Source of the DNA: a virus
Length of the DNA stretch: 33,387 bases
Virus record (IMG/VR): IMGVR_UViG_3300042691_011232
Span: 1-33,387 of that record
Direction: 5' to 3' (one strand)
The position numbers and the translations under genes are program-made. A model generated the notes under the pieces. The model did no database searches and was not told where the DNA came from. It worked only from the letters and a program-made list of their open reading frames with translations. Each line of letters starts with the position of its first letter. Position 1 is the first letter of the stretch. This document shows positions 1,272 through 20,739 of this stretch, piece by piece.

Positions 1272-3427
1272 TGGCACAAGAAGAAATAATATTTAAAGTA
1301 GGTGTTGACACTGGAGATAGTGCTAATAAGGTTGCTACAGTTGAGGAACAGTTTGACATACTTAAGAAAACAATTAGCGACACAGAACAAGAAGTTGAAG
1401 AGCTAACCAAGCAATTTGGAAAGAACTCGCAAGAAGTTGAGAGCGCTCGAAAAAAGTTAGGTAACCTTAATGAATCTTTTAATCAGCTTAAAGGAGCAGC
1501 AACAAATGTTAACTCAACCTTTGCAGATGTTTACGGAGAATTACAACCTTTAACAACTCGTCTAGGTGAGGCAGAAGATAGACTTTATGAGCTATCATTA
1601 GCTGGTAAGCAAAACACGAAAGAGTATAAAGATCTACTAGAGACTGTTGCTCGTTACAAGCAAACGCAAATTGAAACTGATAGAATAATAGATCAGGCTG
1701 CATTAACTATGACTCAAAAACTCGGAGCTGCAATACAAGGAGCTGCAAATGGTTTCATGGTTGTGCAAGGTGCGTCTGCTTTATTTGGTAGTGAGTCGAA
1801 AGAACTAGAGAAAGCACTATTGAAAGTACAAGCTGCAATGGCACTTGCTCAAGGTATCGAAGGTGTTAGACAGGCAATCCCATTGTTTAGTAATTTTGCC
1901 AATACTATAAAAACAAAAGTTATAGCATCATTCACTTCCTTAAGAGGAGCTATAATGTCAACAGGTATCGGAGCATTAGTTGTTGCTATAGGTTATTTAA
2001 TCTCAAACTTTGACAAGTTAAAAGGTGCGATGAGTTCGGGGTTGACTGCAGCAAAAAACTTTGAAACTTCTACATCTAATCAAGCAGAAGAGGCACGTAA
2101 AGCATCTGATAATTTTACTGAATACGAGCGTACACTAAAAAGATTAGGTTATACTGAAGATGAGATAAACAACAAAAGAAAAGCACGTTATAAAGATGCA
2201 ATTGAAAAAACACAAAAAGAAATAGCAGCATCAAAGGATGTATATAAAGAACAATTAAAAAACTTAAAGATTGTTGAGAGCTTTGATAAGTGGGGATTCA
2301 ATGCAACAGGTCGATTATTATTTGGTGATGAAGAAGATGCTAAAGCGCAACAACAAAAGATAAAAGATTTAAGTGCTAATTTAACAAAGCTGCGAAATGA
2401 TCAATTTGAATACAATCAAAAGATAAAAGAAGAAAGAAAAAAAGATAACGAGGATGCTGATAAGAAACAAGCTGAGGCAAATGAGAAAGCAAGGGAAAGA
2501 AGAAAACAAAATTTAGAAGATATTCGCCAAAATAAAATACACCAAATTGAATTAGAAAATGCACGTATATTAGAACAGGAAACTTTAGAAAACGCATACT
2601 ACGATAGTTTTAAAACACAACAGCAATTAGAAGAACAAGCGGTCAGAGATAAGTATTTTACTATCATTCAAACCACAAAAGATAATGAGACTTTAAAACT
2701 TGCACAACAAAAAGAATTAGATGCTATTGCTTTAAAATATAAAGAAGAAGCGGACAAACAAGAAAGCGAACGTTTAAACAACATAGGACAACAATACGAA
2801 GACTTTGTAACACAATATACCGAAGCGGTTAATTCAGTATCAGAGAATGAAAAACTAGCGGTTAACGATAAGTATAATTACCTTATTGAGAAAGCAAAAG
2901 AGTATGGTTTTAGCACTGTAGAATTAGAGAAAAAAAGAGCTGCAGAATTAAAAGAAATAGATAAAGAACTATTACAAGCAAAAGAAAAATTTGTAGATGA
3001 AGTTTCTAATATGCTAGGAGCTTTATCTAGTTCAGCAGCTGAGGGAAGTAAAACACAGAAAGCTTTTGCGGTAGCACAATTAGCAATAGATACAGCTAAG
3101 TCTATCGGCTCGGTTATTAGTGGAGCTACCGCAGCCGCAGCCGCAGGAGGGCCAGCTGCACCATTCTTGATTGGTGGATATATTGCTAGTGGAATCGCAA
3201 CGGTTACTAAAGCGATGAGTACAGCGAAAAAGTTATTAAATGCTCCTTTACCAAGTGTACAACCACCTAGTGCTAATAGACCTACGGATAATGCGCAAGG
3301 TACTACTCAACAAGGTACACAACAAACAATACAAGCTCAAAGTACATATAAAGTAGTAGTAGTGGATTCAGATATTACTAAAATGCAAGATAAGACAAAA
3401 AAAGTTAATGCGATAAGTACTATTTAA
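1271..3427 (+). CDS. Tail tape measure protein
   Basis: 718 aa, among the longest genes here. It has coiled-coil-rich stretches (about residues 18-130 and 270-580), a hydrophobic segment at about 232-246 (GALVVAIGYLIS) and an Ala/Gly-rich hydrophobic region at about 605-660 that includes AFAVAQLAIDTAKSIGSV, a pattern common near the C-terminus of tape measures. Such proteins set tail length and pass into the host envelope at DNA ejection. At the usual 0.15 nm per residue the tail would be about 0.1 micrometre, an inference. Unusually, it is followed directly by head genes. Confidence 0.88.
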   Translation: MAQEEIIFKVGVDTGDSANKVATVEEQFDILKKTISDTEQEVEELTKQFGKNSQEVESARKKLGNLNESFNQLKGAATNVNSTFADVYGELQPLTTRLGEAEDRLYELSLAGKQNTKEYKDLLETVARYKQTQIETDRIIDQAALTMTQKLGAAIQGAANGFMVVQGASALFGSESKELEKALLKVQAAMALAQGIEGVRQAIPLFSNFANTIKTKVIASFTSLRGAIMSTGIGALVVAIGYLISNFDKLKGAMSSGLTAAKNFETSTSNQAEEARKASDNFTEYERTLKRLGYTEDEINNKRKARYKDAIEKTQKEIAASKDVYKEQLKNLKIVESFDKWGFNATGRLLFGDEEDAKAQQQKIKDLSANLTKLRNDQFEYNQKIKEERKKDNEDADKKQAEANEKARERRKQNLEDIRQNKIHQIELENARILEQETLENAYYDSFKTQQQLEEQAVRDKYFTIIQTTKDNETLKLAQQKELDAIALKYKEEADKQESERLNNIGQQYEDFVTQYTEAVNSVSENEKLAVNDKYNYLIEKAKEYGFSTVELEKKRAAELKEIDKELLQAKEKFVDEVSNMLGALSSSAAEGSKTQKAFAVAQLAIDTAKSIGSVISGATAAAAAGGPAAPFLIGGYIASGIATVTKAMSTAKKLLNAPLPSVQPPSANRPTDNAQGTTQQGTQQTIQAQSTYKVVVVDSDITKMQDKTKKVNAISTI

Positions 3428-13658: not shown

Positions 13659-13700
13659 ATAACTTTTATTTTGTATTTAGGTTATTTAGCCTTATATTTG
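13659..13700 (+). promoter_or_regulatory. Early promoter with operator, copy 1
   Basis: ATAACTT, a 13-base gap and AGGTTAT form an imperfect inverted repeat. TTG (13671-13673) and TATATTTG (13693-13700), 19 bases apart, form the promoter around it. The left half-site lies upstream of the -33 box and the right half lies in the spacer. It drives a run of overlapping small early genes. The same arrangement occurs at 15779, 18930 and 20698. Confidence 0.85.
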
Positions 13701-13721
13701 TGTATCTAAAAATTAAAAGAT

Positions 13722-14003
13722 ATGCGAGATAAAACACTACTACAAACGTATAAAGACTACTTTTCAAAAGAAGTACCTAATACGTTAGAATTCACTCAGC
13801 TTAAAGTGATAGCTATAAAGCGACTTAAAGCAAACCGATTTAAACTAAAAGAAATACAGGAAGTAATCGGAATCTGTTATAAGAACGTTTTAAAGCTGAA
13901 TTCTAGAGAAATAAACAAAGAGTTAGAATTATTATTCGACACTCTAATAACTGAAAAAATTTACCCAACTAAACAAAACAACAGAACGACATGGACAAAG
14001 TAA
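13722..14003 (+). CDS. Small helix-turn-helix-like protein, candidate early regulator
   Basis: 93 aa, basic. The segment KRLKANRFKLKEIQEVIGIC followed by YKNVLKLNSREI (about 36-66) looks like a helix-turn-helix. It is the first gene after operator-promoter copy 1, as expected of an autoregulated transcription factor, but that is inference. The start is ATG in an A-rich leader. It overlaps the next gene by 13 bases. Confidence 0.6.
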   Translation: MRDKTLLQTYKDYFSKEVPNTLEFTQLKVIAIKRLKANRFKLKEIQEVIGICYKNVLKLNSREINKELELLFDTLITEKIYPTKQNNRTTWTK

Positions 14004-14176
14004 TATATTTAATAATTATGATAGGCTTTTTATTCGTTGTAAAAGCTCTTTTATCAAGAATGGAGGAAATGTCTGAGAAGAGAAAGAAAGTACGTGAGAA
14101 ACGAGAAAAAGTGCGTAATTACGAAACGATTGACTATACTAATTTCAATCCTAACACTGGTCGTTATGAGAATTAG
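13991..14176 (+). CDS. Small single-span membrane protein
   Basis: 61 aa. A hydrophobic segment (about 4-20, VIYLIIMIGFLFVVKALL) is followed by a highly charged, probably cytoplasmic tail of Lys, Glu and Arg residues. It overlaps both neighbours. No family is recognised. An early envelope protein, for instance in host takeover or exclusion, is possible. Confidence 0.55.
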   Translation: MDKVIYLIIMIGFLFVVKALLSRMEEMSEKRKKVREKREKVRNYETIDYTNFNPNTGRYEN

Positions 14177-14471
14177 AAAACCATACCACAAAAAACACTT
14201 CAAGAACTTGCCAATTGACGTTCAAAATAGAATCTACAACTTGATAAGTAGAGGAAAAACTTTATACCAAATAATCAAGTTAGAGAAAGTTTCGGTATCA
14301 AGCCTTCATTTATTATTTGAAGAAATTCAAAAGCCTGTTTCGAGAGGTAAAATAGGGCATAGAGATGAAGCTTACTGGAGTGAGGAGTACATGATCAACG
14401 GATATATAGCTCCCACTTATGACGAGCTAAGCGAAAGTGAAAAAGTAATTTATAATATGAAAAAAATATGA
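14166..14471 (+). CDS. Putative helix-turn-helix protein
   Basis: 101 aa from the ATG that overlaps the upstream stop by 11 bases. A longer GTG start within the membrane protein gene is less likely. Residues about 18-50 (VQNRIYNLISRGKTLYQIIK then VSVSSLHLLFEEI) show a helix-turn-helix pattern, within a basic N-terminus. It may bind DNA in early regulation. It overlaps the next gene by 4 bases. Confidence 0.55.
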   Translation: MRIRKPYHKKHFKNLPIDVQNRIYNLISRGKTLYQIIKLEKVSVSSLHLLFEEIQKPVSRGKIGHRDEAYWSEEYMINGYIAPTYDELSESEKVIYNMKKI

Positions 14472-14695
14472 TTGAAAGTACAATATACATGGCTCGAATG
14501 ATGTTTAAAGACTTAATCGAGGACTATTCACAAGAAAGTTTAGAACGTTTTGCAAACGATTTTAAGAACTTGGAAGAATTATTTGAAGAACAAATGAAAC
14601 AGGCCTACTATCAAGGATATAACGACAGATGGCACGTTGATAGATCGGATTTGCCACAAGCTTTTAACGATTATATTAACACATATAAAAAATAA
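14468..14695 (+). CDS. Small acidic hypothetical protein
   Basis: 75 aa, mainly helical and acidic, with aromatic-rich YYQGYNDRWHVDRSD near the C-terminus. Starts in an ATGA overlap. No family recognised; part of the early small-gene operon. Confidence 0.6.
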   Translation: MIESTIYMARMMFKDLIEDYSQESLERFANDFKNLEELFEEQMKQAYYQGYNDRWHVDRSDLPQAFNDYINTYKK

Positions 14696-14697
14696 TT

Positions 14698-14955
14698 ATG
14701 AAAGATCAATTATCAGTAATGTACCAAGTGATTTGTTTATCACAGGTAATGTTAGAAACTATAGAAGAACTAGAAGAAAACAACCTATTTAAAAAGAACA
14801 ATAAAGAACTATTTGAAAAGTTTTATGATGTTGTTTCAGACCTTGCAGAAAACAGCACTGACAAACTAACAGATAAGCAAATACAATCTTATCAGTATTC
14901 GACTGACAAGTTAAGAAAGGTAGTAGAAAGAATTAATATAAAATCAGTTTTGTAA
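14698..14955 (+). CDS. Small helical hypothetical protein
   Basis: 85 aa, predicted all helical, Glu/Lys-rich and without Cys motifs or membrane segments. It begins two bases after the previous stop and ends in a TAATG junction with the next gene. Function unknown. Confidence 0.6.
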   Translation: MKDQLSVMYQVICLSQVMLETIEELEENNLFKKNNKELFEKFYDVVSDLAENSTDKLTDKQIQSYQYSTDKLRKVVERINIKSVL

Positions 14956-15344
14956 TGAAGATAGGAGATGAAGTAAAAGCGATAAAACAGTATGTTTATG
15001 GTGCTGGACACCCTAACGGAGGACGTGATGCCCTTATTATAGGAGCTATTTATAAGATAACAGATCAAAGCTGGTCTATGAATACTTTCTCAATAGTTGA
15101 TAATTTTGGGAATAAGCTTTGGTTTAATAACGAGAACGATCATTTTGAAATGGAGAAAAAAGATGCTATTGTTGAAAGCGTTGTTGCGAAGTATTTAAGG
15201 AGATCTAAAGTTGGTATTGATAAGTATGGTACAACTTTACAAGAAAACAACATAGATGACTTTCTTTTGCACCTTCAGGAGGAATTAATGGATGCTTCGC
15301 TTTACATTGAAAAACTAATTAGTCAAAGAAATGGAAACAAGTAG
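14955..15344 (+). CDS. Phage protein with SH3-like start and MazG-like helical C-terminus
   Basis: 129 aa. Residues 1-60 look like a small beta barrel (MKIGDEVKAIKQY, then IIGAIYKITDQS, then FGNKLWF). Residues about 75-125 (KYLRRSKVGIDKYGTTL, then DDFLLHLQEELMDASLYIEKL) match a widespread phage helical domain whose EExxD motif recalls all-alpha NTP pyrophosphohydrolases. Enzymatic activity is not established; a second, clearer MazG-like gene is at 23145. It overlaps the next gene by 14 bases. Confidence 0.6.
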   Translation: MKIGDEVKAIKQYVYGAGHPNGGRDALIIGAIYKITDQSWSMNTFSIVDNFGNKLWFNNENDHFEMEKKDAIVESVVAKYLRRSKVGIDKYGTTLQENNIDDFLLHLQEELMDASLYIEKLISQRNGNK

Positions 15345-15591
15345 AAAATGTTACACTTGTCAGATCGAAAAACCACTTTCTGAATTCACACCCTCAAAAA
15401 GAAAATACCAAATCAAAAAGTATCTTAACCATATGTTAAATTGTGACGAGTGCATTTTGGAAAATACTCGCAAAAACAATGGGACTGCTTGGTTTAATTT
15501 CGAATTAAATAAATTTGAAGTTCACAATTTGGTGACGGATGAAGAAATCCTTTTGTTCTTTGATAATAAACTCAGAAAATTTAAGAAATGA
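15331..15591 (+). CDS. Small zinc-ribbon-like protein
   Basis: 86 aa. Two Cys pairs, CYTCQIEKPLSEF at the start and CDEC at about residues 36-39, form a probable zinc site of the sort seen next to HNH nucleases and in small phage DNA-binding proteins. No HNH residues follow, so it is a zinc-ribbon protein without visible nuclease. It overlaps both neighbours. Confidence 0.6.
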   Translation: METSRKCYTCQIEKPLSEFTPSKRKYQIKKYLNHMLNCDECILENTRKNNGTAWFNFELNKFEVHNLVTDEEILLFFDNKLRKFKK

Positions 15592-15773
15592 AAATAACAG
15601 ATAAAGCTCCTGTTGGATTCACTTGTCCAGCGATTGATGAAGCGATACAGATAATTGAAAATGTAGATATGAGTAATTACGATCGACTACTAGTACTGGA
15701 TCTACTTGAAGAGTTACGTGAGGATAACGCTAAACTCCGTGAATATATTAACGAAATATTAGAAAATAATTAG
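15588..15773 (+). CDS. Small leucine-rich helical protein
   Basis: 61 aa, acidic. The C-terminal half (LLVLDLLEELREDNAKLREY) is a coiled-coil-like helix that could dimerise. The start overlaps the upstream stop as ATGA. It is the last gene before operator-promoter copy 2. Unknown function. Confidence 0.55.
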   Translation: MKITDKAPVGFTCPAIDEAIQIIENVDMSNYDRLLVLDLLEELREDNAKLREYINEILENN

Positions 15774-15778
15774 AAAGT

Positions 15779-15818
15779 ATAACCTTTGTTGTTTATATAA
15801 GTTATTTATATACCTTTG
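15779..15818 (+). promoter_or_regulatory. Early promoter with operator, copy 2
   Basis: ATAACCT, 13 bases, AAGTTAT, then TACCTTTG as the -7 box, with TTG (15789-15791) 19 bases upstream of it. Half-site spacing is identical to the other three copies. It drives the 132-aa protein and the lipoprotein. Confidence 0.82.
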
Positions 15819-15842
15819 TAAGGTAATTAAAATTTAAAGAAT

Positions 15843-16241
15843 ATGAGTAGAGTATTAAAAAGAGTATTAACAAGAAAATCAATTTTAGGTTTTGGTTATG
15901 CTGAATATAGAGATTTGTCAGTACAAATGTTGCTTGATTTAAATAAACATAATTTACTAATTGATGTATATTATGGTCTTGAAAAAATAGACTTTATTCC
16001 TGATATATTAGATGAGTTAGGTATAACAGAAGAGTTTAGAATAATTAAACCTTCAAAAGATAGGATTATGAGAGGTAAATTTTACACTCACTTAATAAAT
16101 AATAGAGATGAAGAAAAAGATTTTAAAATAATGGCATCAAATTTTTGGGATAATAAAAAAAGAAGTAAAAATAAAGAAAAAGGAGATAGCTATAAATATG
16201 GTAGCAAGGTATATTTAATGAATAAAAATCACGGAAAATGA
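15843..16241 (+). CDS. Hypothetical early protein
   Basis: 132 aa, unrecognised. N-terminal basic helix (MSRVLKRVLTRKSILGFGYA), then an alpha/beta-like stretch (DLSVQMLLDLNKHNLLIDVY, IDFIPDILDELGITEEFRII), and a Lys-rich C-terminus. No signal peptide. It is the first gene after its own operator-promoter and overlaps the lipoprotein gene by 4 bases, so the two are probably co-expressed. Confidence 0.6.
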   Translation: MSRVLKRVLTRKSILGFGYAEYRDLSVQMLLDLNKHNLLIDVYYGLEKIDFIPDILDELGITEEFRIIKPSKDRIMRGKFYTHLINNRDEEKDFKIMASNFWDNKKRSKNKEKGDSYKYGSKVYLMNKNHGK

Positions 16242-16492
16242 AAAAATTAGTATTAGTATTAGGAATAGCAACTTTATTTAGTTGCGAAAAGGAAGTATCA
16301 AAAGCATCTAAAACAACTTGTAATTGTCATCGTGAGTGGCAAAATCAACAATACCCTTATTATATAAATGGAGTTCAATATGGTAGTTATTGGTCACAAA
16401 CTTATTATGGTGAATCAAAACAAGATTTTTGTGCGAATGCTTATGATTGGACATTAAGAAATGGTTATAAAGAAAGATATGTTTGTGAATAA
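16238..16492 (+). CDS. Small secreted lipoprotein, possible superinfection exclusion factor
   Basis: 84 aa. A signal peptide with lipobox (MKKLVLVLGIATLFSC) predicts lipidation at Cys16. The mature part is Tyr/Trp/Gln-rich with five Cys in all and a CNC pair. Acidic residues soon after Cys16 (CEKE) faintly recall Bacteroidetes surface-export signals. Phage lipoproteins often block secondary infection; here that is inference from type and early operator-linked expression. Confidence 0.75.
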   Translation: MKKLVLVLGIATLFSCEKEVSKASKTTCNCHREWQNQQYPYYINGVQYGSYWSQTYYGESKQDFCANAYDWTLRNGYKERYVCE

Positions 16493-16495
16493 TAG

Positions 16496-16525
16496 TTGCC
16501 AATTAAAATAAAAAGGTTATATTTG
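16496..16525 (+). promoter_or_regulatory. Bacteroidetes-type promoter for the leader RNA
   Basis: TTG and TATATTTG are 19 bases apart. An AGGTTAT half-site like that of the operators overlaps the -7 box, but the left half-site is missing. The promoter lies just after the lipoprotein stop, and a structured leader follows. Confidence 0.78.
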
Positions 16526-16529
16526 TACT

Positions 16530-16624
16530 ATCGAAGCGTAGGAAACTCCGAAAACATTTATTAAACAACAGAAAAGCTGACTCAAAAAGGTATTCCTACG
16601 CACCTTTTGAAGTTGGCTTTTTCT
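16530..16624 (+). ncRNA. Structured leader / small RNA with self-complementary terminator loop
   Basis: No gene fits the 170 bases between 16492 and 16663. The predicted RNA has GCGTAGGAA (16536-16544) near its 5' end. Then comes a long hairpin: 16572-16582 pairs with 16611-16621 and 16585-16591 pairs with 16602-16608, around a 10-base loop. The loop holds TTCCTACGC (16593-16601), the exact complement of the 5' segment. The hairpin ends in TTTTT, so it is an intrinsic terminator. The loop pairing could act in cis as attenuator control or in trans as a kissing RNA. Ends are estimates. Confidence 0.7.
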
Positions 16625-16662
16625 ATTAAATTTTGTTTGTTTTTTTAAAACATTCACAAATT

Positions 16663-16875
16663 ATGGCAGTACAATTAAAGTTCTACGGAACAGAAGTAAC
16701 AAACACAAATGAACATTCTCTAGATGTTTTTGTAAATTCTCAACTTGAAATAACAGTTAGAATAAAAGATGAATCGGTTGAACACGATTATAACCAGCAA
16801 GTAGTTAGTTTAGATAAGCAAACCGCTATTAGATTAAGTCGTGAGTTAAGAAAACAAATCGCTTTATTAGACTAA
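16663..16875 (+). CDS. Small hypothetical protein before the replication genes
   Basis: 70 aa from the ATG after the leader. Beta-rich start (AVQLKFYGTEVTNTNEHSLD), then a helical end (KQTAIRLSRELRKQIALLD). Two bases separate it from the replication initiator. Likely an accessory protein of the replication operon; no family known. Confidence 0.6.
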   Translation: MAVQLKFYGTEVTNTNEHSLDVFVNSQLEITVRIKDESVEHDYNQQVVSLDKQTAIRLSRELRKQIALLD

Positions 16876-16877
16876 TT

Positions 16878-17591
16878 ATGAATATCGGTTGGGTAAAATT
16901 ACACCGACAATTTAAGGATTGGGAGTGGTATAATAAATCTGAAATGGTTCATTTATTTATTCATTGTTTGATTAAAGCCAACTTTAAAGATGGTTCATTC
17001 CAAGGTATTGAATGTAAAAAAGGATCGTTTATAACTTCTTTAAAACACCTATCTGATGAAACTAATATATCAATTCAGACAATTAGAACGTGTTTAAAAA
17101 AGTTACAATTAACAAAAGAAATTTACGTAAAATCAACAAACAAACTAACACAGATAACTATTTGTAATTATGATAGTTACCAACAAGAAAACGAAGACAC
17201 TAACAAACAACTAACAAACAATCAACAAACAACTAACAAACAACTAACAACAATAGAAGAATATAAAGAAAGTAAAGAAGAAAAAAAAAATATTAAAGAC
17301 CGCAAAACAAGTTTTGCTATTTCTTTAGAACCTTATCTAGAATTATACAATAGAGAGATGTTAAACAACTTTTATATGTATTGGACTGAACATGGTGAAA
17401 AGGATAAAAAGATGAGGTTTGAAAAGGAAAAATCTTTTGATGTAAAATTAAGATTATTGAATTGGAGTAAAAGAAGTGAAAGTTTTAAGCAAAAAGAATT
17501 TAAAAAAGAAGTTTTATTTGTAACTCCAGAGGGAATAGAAATTACTGATAAGTTAGTATTACACGTTTATCAACAAACAGGAAAGGTATGA
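16878..17591 (+). CDS. Replication initiation protein (winged-helix, DnaD/lambda O-like)
   Basis: 237 aa. The N-terminal 100 residues follow the pattern of phage replisome organisers: WVKLHRQFKDWEWY, FIHCLIKANF, KKGSFITSLKHLSDETNIS, then a recognition helix IQTIRTCLKKL and a wing ending ITICNYDSYQ. A low-complexity Thr/Asn/Gln/Lys linker (about 108-135) is encoded by 11-bp iteron-like repeats. The C-terminal 90 residues could contact the helicase encoded next, which overlaps by 4 bases. Lambda O has the same layout, with the origin inside the gene. Confidence 0.8.
   Translation: MNIGWVKLHRQFKDWEWYNKSEMVHLFIHCLIKANFKDGSFQGIECKKGSFITSLKHLSDETNISIQTIRTCLKKLQLTKEIYVKSTNKLTQITICNYDSYQQENEDTNKQLTNNQQTTNKQLTTIEEYKESKEEKKNIKDRKTSFAISLEPYLELYNREMLNNFYMYWTEHGEKDKKMRFEKEKSFDVKLRLLNWSKRSESFKQKEFKKEVLFVTPEGIEITDKLVLHVYQQTGKV
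17132..17300 (+). other. Candidate replication origin: 11-bp iterons followed by A-rich tract
   Basis: Five adjacent 11-base units fill 17199-17253: ACTAACAAACA, ACTAACAAACA, ATCAACAAACA, ACTAACAAACA and ACTAACAACAA. A further ATCAACAAACA lies at 17132. An A/G-rich, easily melted tract follows (17254-17300, including a 10-base A run). The 11-base period is one helical turn and is not a multiple of three, so codon repetition does not explain it. The arrangement of iterons in the initiator gene linker followed by an AT-rich tract mirrors the lambda origin. Confidence 0.65.
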
Positions 17592-18562
17592 TACTTAAAG
17601 ACGGACATTCAACACAAACTATTTTAGATTATAAAAATGGTTTAATACCTAGAGGGCTTGAATTAGGTATTCATTTTGATGAACATTTTGTTCATAAGCA
17701 TGGACAATTGAATTTTGCACTTGGACATGATAACGTTGGTAAAACTTATTTTATGGAGTGGTATTTTTTAGCTTTAGCAACAAATCATAATTTAACTTTT
17801 ACTTTGTTTATGGATGAAAACCCACCTTACAAAGTTTTAAGAGATATGCTTAAAATGTATTTAGCAAAGCCAATAGAAGAAATGAGTGAACTTGAAATAA
17901 AAAAAGGTTTAATTAAATTAGAGCATCATTTTAAGTTTGTAGACAATACAAAAAGATACACTCCAGAAGAACTTTTAAACGTATTTAATGAAACAAATAC
18001 AGATGTTTATTTAATTGATCCTTTTAATGCTTTAAAATCTTCAATGACTTACGCAGGTAATTACGATGTTTTAAATGAACTCAAAATGTTTTGTAAAAGG
18101 ACAGGAAAAACTATTTATATAAATGCACACCCATCAACAGCTGCAGGTCGTAAACAAGCTGTATATCCAAAAGGTCATAATTGGGAAGGTCATATAATGT
18201 TTCCTTTTAAAGATGATATTGAAGGTGGTAAACCTTTTTCTAACAAGGCTGATGATTTTATAATTATTCATCGTTTTAATGGACATGAAAATTTAAGATT
18301 TACAACACTAGTAGAAGTTAAAAAAATTAAAGATACTGATACAGGTGGAAGGCAAACTTTAAATGAACAGCCTATATTTTTTGATTATAACTATGGATTT
18401 GGTTTTAAATGCGGTGGTAAAGATGTTATTAAAAGACCTAAAGATATTCAAACAGATGCTTTTATACCAAAAGACGAACCTATAAAACCAGCAAACCTAA
18501 TGAATATAGGTAGGGAAGTAAACGAGTTTAAACCATTAACAGACGATCAATTACCATTCTAA
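17588..18562 (+). CDS. RecA-fold replicative helicase (DnaB/RepA-like)
   Basis: 324 aa. A Walker A variant GHDNVGKTYF (Lys52), Walker B TDVYLIDPFN at about 138-147, and a downstream IYINAHPSTAAGR segment fit a phage hexameric helicase or RecA-like ATPase. There is no DnaB N-terminal domain, so it is a short single-domain form. It overlaps the initiator gene by 4 bases. The last residues, TDDQLPF, resemble the acidic C-terminal tip of bacterial SSB. Confidence 0.8.
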   Translation: MILKDGHSTQTILDYKNGLIPRGLELGIHFDEHFVHKHGQLNFALGHDNVGKTYFMEWYFLALATNHNLTFTLFMDENPPYKVLRDMLKMYLAKPIEEMSELEIKKGLIKLEHHFKFVDNTKRYTPEELLNVFNETNTDVYLIDPFNALKSSMTYAGNYDVLNELKMFCKRTGKTIYINAHPSTAAGRKQAVYPKGHNWEGHIMFPFKDDIEGGKPFSNKADDFIIIHRFNGHENLRFTTLVEVKKIKDTDTGGRQTLNEQPIFFDYNYGFGFKCGGKDVIKRPKDIQTDAFIPKDEPIKPANLMNIGREVNEFKPLTDDQLPF

Positions 18563-18927
18563 TGAAAGAACTAGATTTAATACTAAGCCAGCAAAGGCTT
18601 TTAAAAAACATTATTAAGATTCAAAATTCAGTTCAAGATATAGAGCTAAAACATAAAGACCGTAAAGACTTAATCGATTCAATGAATAAAAGTATTGAAG
18701 AACTTACACTGGTCCTTAAAGATTTTAGGAATTTAGAGCAAAACTTTAAAACAGTGTCTCAGATGAACGATAAAGTTAACGAACGATATTATATACTAAA
18801 AAAAGAATATAATTCGTTAGAAGCAGTTAAAACATCAAATAATGACACTGAAAGTTATATCTTATCTTTAGAGAATGAGAATAGAGAACTTAAAAATAAA
18901 TTAGATATTTTAATAAAAGAATTATAA
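18562..18927 (+). CDS. Coiled-coil protein
   Basis: 121 aa, almost wholly helical with heptad-like Leu/Ile spacing (for example SLENENRELKNKLDILIKEL at the end). It starts on the last base of the helicase stop (TAATG). No catalytic motif. Position suggests a replication accessory protein, but function is unknown. Confidence 0.6.
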   Translation: MKELDLILSQQRLLKNIIKIQNSVQDIELKHKDRKDLIDSMNKSIEELTLVLKDFRNLEQNFKTVSQMNDKVNERYYILKKEYNSLEAVKTSNNDTESYILSLENENRELKNKLDILIKEL

Positions 18928-18929
18928 AA

Positions 18930-18961
18930 GTAACTTATATTAAAAAAATAAGTTATATTTG
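18930..18961 (+). promoter_or_regulatory. Early promoter with operator, copy 3
   Basis: GTAACTT, 13 bases, AAGTTAT. The right half overlaps the -7 box TATATTTG (18954-18961). No TTG is seen at the usual -33 distance, so this copy may be weaker or need activation. Spacing of the half-sites is the same as in the other copies. Confidence 0.78.
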
Positions 18962-18983
18962 TAGAAATTTAAAACTAAAAATT

Positions 18984-19271
18984 ATGATAACAAGTGAGAT
19001 TAAAGAGAATGTAATTTATTTACTTAGAAATTTTCCAGAAACAAAAGACTGTGACTTAAAATTAGTTGCTAGGTATTGGGATAAATTTGACGGGTATAAT
19101 ACTGCTGTTTACTTTGAAGATATCTATTATGGTCATGTAACCCACTTTGAAAGTATAAGACGAATGAGACAAAAATTGCAAATGGACAATGAAGAGTTAA
19201 GAGGGTTAAGGTATAAGACTAGAAAAAACAAGTTAGAGAAAGAGGTTCGTGAATTAATTAAAAATGATTAA
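18984..19271 (+). CDS. Small basic hypothetical protein
   Basis: 95 aa. The N-terminal half (LLRNFPETKDCDLKLVARYW) and the ESIRRMRQKLQ then ELRGLRYKTRKNK segment follow a pattern widespread in small proteins near phage replication genes, perhaps DNA-binding. It is the first gene behind operator-promoter copy 3 and overlaps the methyltransferase start by 8 bases. Confidence 0.6.
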   Translation: MITSEIKENVIYLLRNFPETKDCDLKLVARYWDKFDGYNTAVYFEDIYYGHVTHFESIRRMRQKLQMDNEELRGLRYKTRKNKLEKEVRELIKND

Positions 19272-19956
19272 AATGAAAGTATTAAATTTATACGCTTGTT
19301 TGGGTGGGAATAGATACAAGTGGGATGAGGTCGCAAAAGATGCAGGAATTGAAATAGAAGTAACTGCGGTTGAATTAGACCCTGAAGCAGCAAGATTATA
19401 CCAAGATAGATTTCCAAATGATAAAGTAATAGTTGCAGATGCACATCAATATTTATTAGATAATTATAAAGAGTTTGATTTCATTTGGAGTTCACCCCCT
19501 TGCCCGACACATAGTAGAGCAAGATATTGGAATAGTTCAAATTATGAAACAACAACACAAGCTGTTTATCCTGATTTGAAACTTTATGAAGAAATACTTT
19601 TTTTACAACATTATTATAAGCATGGTAAATTTGTTGTCGAGAATGTAATACCTTATTATGAGCCTTTAATTTTATCACAAAAAAGAGGTAGACATTTATA
19701 CTGGACTAATTTTAATTTACCAAACGAATGTAATGATAGAGGCTTTAAAATTTCACAAGAAAAAAATGAATTAGATTCTTTATGTAAGTTTCATGACTAT
19801 GATTTTAAACAATATAAAGGTGAGCAATCAGTAGTTAAAATGGCACGCAACTTAGTAGACTATGAAGCAGGAAGAACTATTTTTGAAACCGCTTTAGGCA
19901 TTATAAAAAAGAAAGACGAGAAGCAAATTTCAATATTTGATGAATTAAATGATTAA
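19264..19956 (+). CDS. DNA C5-cytosine methyltransferase
   Basis: 230 aa; an in-frame ATG 9 bases later (after the upstream stop) is an alternative start. Motif I is MKVLNLYACLGGNRYKW, motif IV is SSPPCPTHS with catalytic Cys80, and motif VI is GKFVVENVIPYY. It is compact, as phage C5 enzymes often are, and a target-recognition domain is hard to see. The C-terminus KQISIFDELND contains a QxSxFD-like beta-clamp-binding motif. It probably modifies phage DNA against host restriction. Confidence 0.82.
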   Translation: MIKMKVLNLYACLGGNRYKWDEVAKDAGIEIEVTAVELDPEAARLYQDRFPNDKVIVADAHQYLLDNYKEFDFIWSSPPCPTHSRARYWNSSNYETTTQAVYPDLKLYEEILFLQHYYKHGKFVVENVIPYYEPLILSQKRGRHLYWTNFNLPNECNDRGFKISQEKNELDSLCKFHDYDFKQYKGEQSVVKMARNLVDYEAGRTIFETALGIIKKKDEKQISIFDELND

Positions 19957-20149
19957 AAAAATACACATACTTTTTAGGCGTATAGACGAACTTTTTAACC
20001 TTCCTTATGGTACAAGTAAGGTAGCAATAAAAGAACGCTTACAAATAGAAAGTATAGGTAAATTAGAACATGAAGATTTAAGCTACTTATTGAGGTATGT
20101 AGATAATATTTTACTAGAAAATGGAATTGATATAGATGAACACAAATAG
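19949..20149 (+). CDS. Small hypothetical protein
   Basis: 66 aa. Basic start (MIKKIHILFRRIDELFNLPY), acidic end. Overlaps the methyltransferase by 8 bases and NinG by 14. Unrecognised; helical by appearance. Confidence 0.55.
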   Translation: MIKKIHILFRRIDELFNLPYGTSKVAIKERLQIESIGKLEHEDLSYLLRYVDNILLENGIDIDEHK

Positions 20150-20693
20150 AAACATAAAACAAAAGAAATGCCGCTACTGCGAAACTCTTTTTTATCCAAT
20201 TAGAACAACAGCTATTGTCTGTTCGTATGAATGCTCGATGTTATACACTAAGGAACTAAACGAAAAAAAGGGAAAAAAAGAGTGGAAGGAGCGAAAAGCT
20301 AAAATGAAATCTGATCTTATGACTCTTAGTGACTGGTTAAAGATTGCACAATCTCATTTTAACGAATACATAAGACTAAGAGATAAAGATCAGCTATGTA
20401 TTAGTTGTCAAAAACCACCATTGAAAAAAAATGCAGGTCACTTCTATAATTCAAACAATCATTATAACGTTAGATTTGACGAGCGAAATGTGAATTTACA
20501 ATGTGAACACTGCAATACTTTTTTAAGTGGATCATTGATTAATTATAGAGAAAACTTAATTAAGAAAATCGGAATTACCGATTTTAATAAACTATCTTTA
20601 ATAGCAAATGAAACTAGAAAGTTTACTATTTCAGAGGTTAAAGAGATAATCGAGACATACAAAGAGAAAATTAAAACATTAAAAAATTCTTAA
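20136..20693 (+). CDS. ninG: NinG/Rap-like recombination protein
   Basis: 185 aa. An N-terminal zinc finger (CRYCETLFYP ... CSYEC, about 12-35) is followed by the NinG core: MTLSDWLKIAQSHFNEYIRLRD, CISCQK, NAGHFYNSNNHYNVRFDERN, and LQCEHCNTFLSG. NinG (Rap) stimulates recombination in lambda and works as a structure-specific nuclease. Its place before the ERF and exonuclease genes fits a recombination module. Confidence 0.88.
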   Translation: MNTNRNIKQKKCRYCETLFYPIRTTAIVCSYECSMLYTKELNEKKGKKEWKERKAKMKSDLMTLSDWLKIAQSHFNEYIRLRDKDQLCISCQKPPLKKNAGHFYNSNNHYNVRFDERNVNLQCEHCNTFLSGSLINYRENLIKKIGITDFNKLSLIANETRKFTISEVKEIIETYKEKIKTLKNS

Positions 20694-20697
20694 AAAG

Positions 20698-20739
20698 ATA
20701 ACTTTTATTTGCGAGATAAGTTATTTATTATTATATTTG
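20698..20739 (+). promoter_or_regulatory. Early promoter with operator, copy 4
   Basis: ATAACTT, 13 bases, AAGTTAT is a perfect inverted repeat. TTG (20709-20711) and TATATTTG (20732-20739) are 20 bases apart. It drives the ERF/exonuclease genes and probably the long gene run after them. Confidence 0.87.

Follow-up and report, generated by a model that had tools for sequence, protein, structure and literature searches.

A 25-bp inverted repeat shared by four early promoters as a putative operator of a phage-encoded regulator in a small virus of Bacteroidetes-type bacteria

Four early promoters of the virus considered here share a 25-bp inverted repeat, TAACYT-N13-ARGTTA, at which, judging from the sequence, a single protein made by the virus very probably docks. 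The window, that is, the whole stretch of DNA analysed, is a 33,387-base IMG/VR virus record with 32% G+C. Its gene set is phage-like (portal, terminase subunits, tape-measure-like protein, endolysin, DnaD-like helicase loader, helicase, ERF with a match to Pfam PF04404, exonuclease with a match to phrog_5715, and NinG), all these genes being carried by the plus strand, and the virus is a small virus of Bacteroidetes-type bacteria. In agreement with the initial annotation, no match to an integrase or a CI-like repressor was seen among the window ORFs scanned; the lipoprotein pair described there is reduced to a single lipoprotein-like ORF (16238), downstream of an unrelated ORF (15843). Cultured phages yielded neither a DNA match nor a relative of the product of ORF 13722, the candidate regulator discussed below, and the ERF relatives in cultured phages are all less than 60% identical. 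Pattern-limited searches of 84,980 prokaryote genomes produced no relative of ORF 13722 or ERF.

Exactly four exact matches to the element are present in the window, starting at 13660, 15780, 18931 and 20699; the element and its N13 gaps had been described correctly in the initial annotation, with each start placed one base too low (13659, 15779, 18930 and 20698). No place in the window matches with one mismatch, hence the four exact copies are clear of the background. With up to three mismatches allowed, there are 102 matches in the window versus 119 expected from shuffles, that is, no enrichment. The mean number of exact matches in 600 dinucleotide shuffles was 0.048 and the maximum was 2, and all four window copies are intergenic, at promoters only. 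As claimed, the half-sites are offset by 19 bp, and the gap sequences do differ between the copies, though two of them share the start TTATTT. The half-site hexamers form four pairs with spacing 13 in the window, one with spacing 8 and one with spacing 12. If the motif is left free (any 5-bp arm, gap of 4 to 25), a four-fold repeat arises in 2 of 40 shuffles, which makes it only mildly unusual, and hence the real proof is conservation in relatives.

The position of the repeats relative to the promoters, denoted P1 to P4, was considered using the Flavobacterium johnsoniae -7 element, which spans -12 to -5 (PMC6847099). Given this span, the repeats are centred at -33 (P1 and P4), -31 (P2) and -23 (P3), and the claimed overlap with the TTTG/TAnnTTTG promoter elements holds at all four. 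All operators are exact matches with no strand assigned, and all -7 elements are on the plus strand. Operator 1 (TAACTTTTATTTTGTATTTAGGTTA, 13660-13684) is centred on the -33 element of P1, whose TTTG lies within the operator, separated by a 19-bp spacer from the -7 element (TATATTTG, 13693-13700; consensus according to PMC6847099). Operator 2 (TAACCTTTGTTGTTTATATAAGTTA, 15780-15804) precedes the P2 -7 element (TACCTTTG, 15811-15818), and operator 4 (TAACTTTTATTTGCGAGATAAGTTA, 20699-20723), centred on the P4 -33 element, precedes the -7 element at 20732-20739 (again TATATTTG), upstream of the ERF and exonuclease genes. In these three promoters the repeat covers the -33 TTTG/TTG, which is situated inside the gap, 19-20 bp upstream of TAnnTTTG, and ends 6-8 bp upstream of TAnnTTTG. 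Operator 3 (TAACTTATATTAAAAAAATAAGTTA, 18931-18955) abuts the P3 -7 element (TATATTTG, 18954-18961), the last two operator bases being common to TAnnTTTG, and there is no TTTG at -33.

When relatives are added to the window, the operator centres form two groups, -31 to -34 and -23 to -25, both over the core promoter. The P3-type arrangement is observed at the first promoter in three contigs (L090, L092 and L093), and a related one at the fourth promoter in four (L013, L016, L018 and L093), the two arrangements being interchangeable in evolution. As the repeat covers the core promoter, the geometry is that of an operator, with repression favoured.

The related viral contigs (L-numbers) were gathered with ERF and ORF 13722 as queries. 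At these loci the half-sites occur at spacing 13 in 37 places, some contigs being counted twice, versus 0-7 places for any other spacing between 0 and 40; other half-site spacings were therefore rejected as variants of the element, being at the background level in both the window and the relatives. After duplicate loci were dropped, 31 exact and 7 near copies (with right halves GAGTTA or AAGTAT) remained in 18 other contigs, at syntenic promoters; hence the element is present, not absent, at the corresponding promoters of related phages. Operator 1 is kept in L011, L014, L018, L086, L088 and L094. Among the P2 orthologues (n = 7 contigs) the gap drifts, the left half does not vary, and the right half is AAGTTA or AAGTTT, only the last base varying. 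The P3 promoter type is represented by 17 copies, including that of the window. For the P4 orthologues (n = 11 contigs), the half-sites are invariant and the gap sequence drifts. At both P2 and P4 the bases of the gap change while its length is constant.

When IMG/VR was scanned for the operator with TAnnTTTG behind it, 67 stretches were obtained, with promoter-linked intergenic copies only in the clade of the window; the remaining stretches look like isolated chance matches. In five contigs (L029, L052, L054, L057 and L060), TAACTGTCTAAATACTAGGCAGTTA, an inverted repeat of another kind with a T-run after it, fits the loose operator pattern and looks like a terminator. In L014, a tRNA-like sequence is apparently inserted between the P4 operator (8721) and ERF (8895). 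In L013 (1711-2100), the homologue of 13722 carries a frameshift and the P1 operator has a changed right half, AGGTAT, which is either a real loss or a sequencing error.

In a sister lineage (L015, L025 and L097) the repeat is TTACA-N15-TGTAA at all known sites, two each in L015 and L025 and one in L097, with the 25-bp width and the position relative to TAnnTTTG being the same as in the window operators. The ERF of L015 is 83-84% identical to that of the window, yet the promoter upstream of it carries half-sites of the TTACA type. The sites agree within a genome and differ between lineages, as predicted for a phage-encoded trans-acting factor, and the operator site and the phage factor have changed together. 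The homologues of the 13722 product in this lineage are 33-37% identical to it; other early genes, for example in L015, have diverged too, so the co-variation has no power to single out 13722. An IMG/VR scan with TTACA-N15-TGTAA before TAnnTTTG was rejected, as this pattern is too unspecific.

The gene 13722 (13722-14003, plus strand) encodes a 93-aa predicted helix-turn-helix protein, which we propose, based on an AlphaFold2 model and conservation, as the operator-binding autoregulator. It is the first gene behind operator 1, with 37 nt between the end of the operator and the start codon, and the repeat overlaps the core part of P1, the promoter of this operon. The gene is present in every related contig covering the region, and its family sits behind the first operator there. 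Its product has no match to any Pfam or PHROG family, including the HTH_3-type and CI/Cro families. The AlphaFold2 model (pLDDT 78, pTM 0.68, i.e. of moderate confidence) combines a tri-helical core with a beta hairpin at the C-terminus, and a structure search with it against PDB and BFVD gave no significant match; for the L015 homologue, the model was not strong enough to be searched with. As the other early genes of L015 have diverged as well, the regulator can be assigned to the 13722 product only as the probable candidate.

Among the weak BFVD matches of the 13722 model, DnaA-C-like phage proteins recur (TM about 0.5). The early region of L021, a more distant relative, encodes a protein with the DnaA C-terminal domain (2937-3329; PF08299, 8.9e-11), and ORFs from the corresponding early regions of four further distant relatives (L051, L053, L023 and L024) align with it. 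The similarity to phage Bac_DnaA_C proteins comprises both the loose structural resemblance and a similar early-region place in distant relatives. Conversely, neither the 13722 product nor 12 aligned relatives matched PF08299 at E up to 10, and a profile comparison of the 13722 family with the DnaA-C-like relatives was not significant (probability 2%). We regard it as a tentative possibility that the 13722 family derives from phage-encoded DnaA C-terminal domains recruited as a transcription repressor. If so, two protein units on two separate inverted boxes would explain the wide 19-bp offset, and the sister lineage would be a natural example of the box specificity switching along with the binder.

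There is good support, from synteny, the restriction to one clade and the change of half-sites, for the action of one phage-encoded regulator at all four sites; its extension to all early genes in the initial annotation is not supported, as the promoters at 16518 and 25551 lack the element. We consider it reasonably likely that the element is the operator of this regulator, and that the 13722 protein binds P1-P4 and represses all four together. Upon entry of the phage DNA, the host RNA polymerase would read the early promoters at once, and the 13722 protein, encoded by the first gene of the P1 operon, would accumulate. At each of P1-P4 it would then occupy both half-sites, which are offset by 19 bp and overlie or adjoin the -33/-7 core, blocking the polymerase at all four promoters, including its own. 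This would jointly shut down four early modules: the small proteins, the lipoprotein module, the methyltransferase/NinG genes and the ERF/exonuclease genes.

The binder could be a different early phage protein, either that encoded at 14166 (14166-14471, plus strand) or one of the conserved small proteins in which no DNA-binding domain is recognised, and we consider this rather unlikely. The 14166 product, like that of 13722, is HTH-like, both had been proposed as binders, and several small early genes are conserved clade-wide. However, the L011/L085 counterpart of the 14166 protein shows only 34% identity and a different HTH region, whereas the four operators retain the same half-sites; the 13722 product fits, and 14166 fits poorly and was rejected as the leading candidate. 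The action at P1-P4, in turn, is probably repression: the near-consensus host promoters, the occlusion of the core and the autoregulatory position of the gene would all favour it. Still, the lack of a -33 element in P3 and the offset of about one helical turn between the two groups of centres (-31 to -34 and -23 to -25) would also fit activation, with a phage activator on the same operator raising the four promoters by touching the polymerase from around -33 and -23. This is unlikely, as P1, P2 and P4, being close to the host consensus, should fire unaided, the operator covers polymerase contacts, and the activator's own gene would be the first expressed, leaving nothing to start the infection.

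The site could instead be that of a host regulator, exploited by the phages, with another version of this regulator in the host of the sister lineage. This seems improbable, since the operator type tracks the phage's own early gene and promoter-linked intergenic copies in IMG/VR were recognised only within the clade. Finally, chance or common ancestry of duplicated AT-rich promoters, with no function, would agree with the AT-richness of the sequences, the resemblance between P1 and P4 and the mild unusualness of the free-motif repeat. On the other hand, the half-sites are invariant beside drifting gaps, the spacing is fixed, the same repeat occurs in two promoter architectures, and the change in the sister lineage is concerted; hence we consider this explanation very improbable indeed.

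Early proteins that repress several early promoters, including their own, are represented by lambda Cro and similar proteins. The proposed repressor of P1-P4 is alike in this respect, but here there is no divergent switch region and no integrase, and each promoter has a single operator. In the case of Aca autorepressors, a small HTH protein is encoded in the operon and an inverted repeat is situated in the core promoter, providing negative autoregulation (PMC9410906). The 13722 locus shares the small HTH-like gene in the operon and the inverted repeat within its core promoter. It differs in having one element at four separate operons and a wide half-site offset, with repression being predicted; moreover, the Pfam and PHROG searches matched 13722 to no Aca family, and no anti-CRISPR gene was recognised in the window.

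The promoter at 16518-16525 (plus strand), upstream of the DnaD-like/helicase operon, serves as a control without the 25-bp element. It is followed by a structured leader RNA (16526-16623) with a terminator at the end; the hairpin loop of this terminator pairs with a segment near the 5' end. This leader is also present in relatives (L018:6452, L014:3958, L052:14360 and others), in two forms with a common architecture, the window having the second one. The other form, represented by 11 relatives (10 distinct), shows pairing in 95.7% of cells and changes on both sides in 11 of its 21 pairs, and the covariation score was reached by none of 500 shuffles. Rfam gave no match at the gathering score in three related leader loci, and none for the window leader. 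The leader may act as an attenuator or represent a small RNA. Within the DnaD-like gene itself, a repeat-like sequence of operator width, TAACTATTTGTAATTATGATAGTTA (17155-17179) is followed by AACAAACAACT-like repeats. It is kept in a few clade members, the peptide ITICNY(D/E)SYQ accounting for part of this conservation, and is possibly an origin feature.

Taken together, 13722 and the 25-bp element would constitute a new operator/regulator pair, for which we infer both the repression and the identity of the binder. In the literature searched, we came upon no phage with Bacteroidetes-type promoters whose early regulon had been mapped, and the four operators with a candidate regulator lacking a family match provide a testable regulon. 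The pair of lineages with switched specificity could reveal which residues read which bases, and, in Flavobacterium genetics, the protein with its site may be of use as a small repressor-operator pair.
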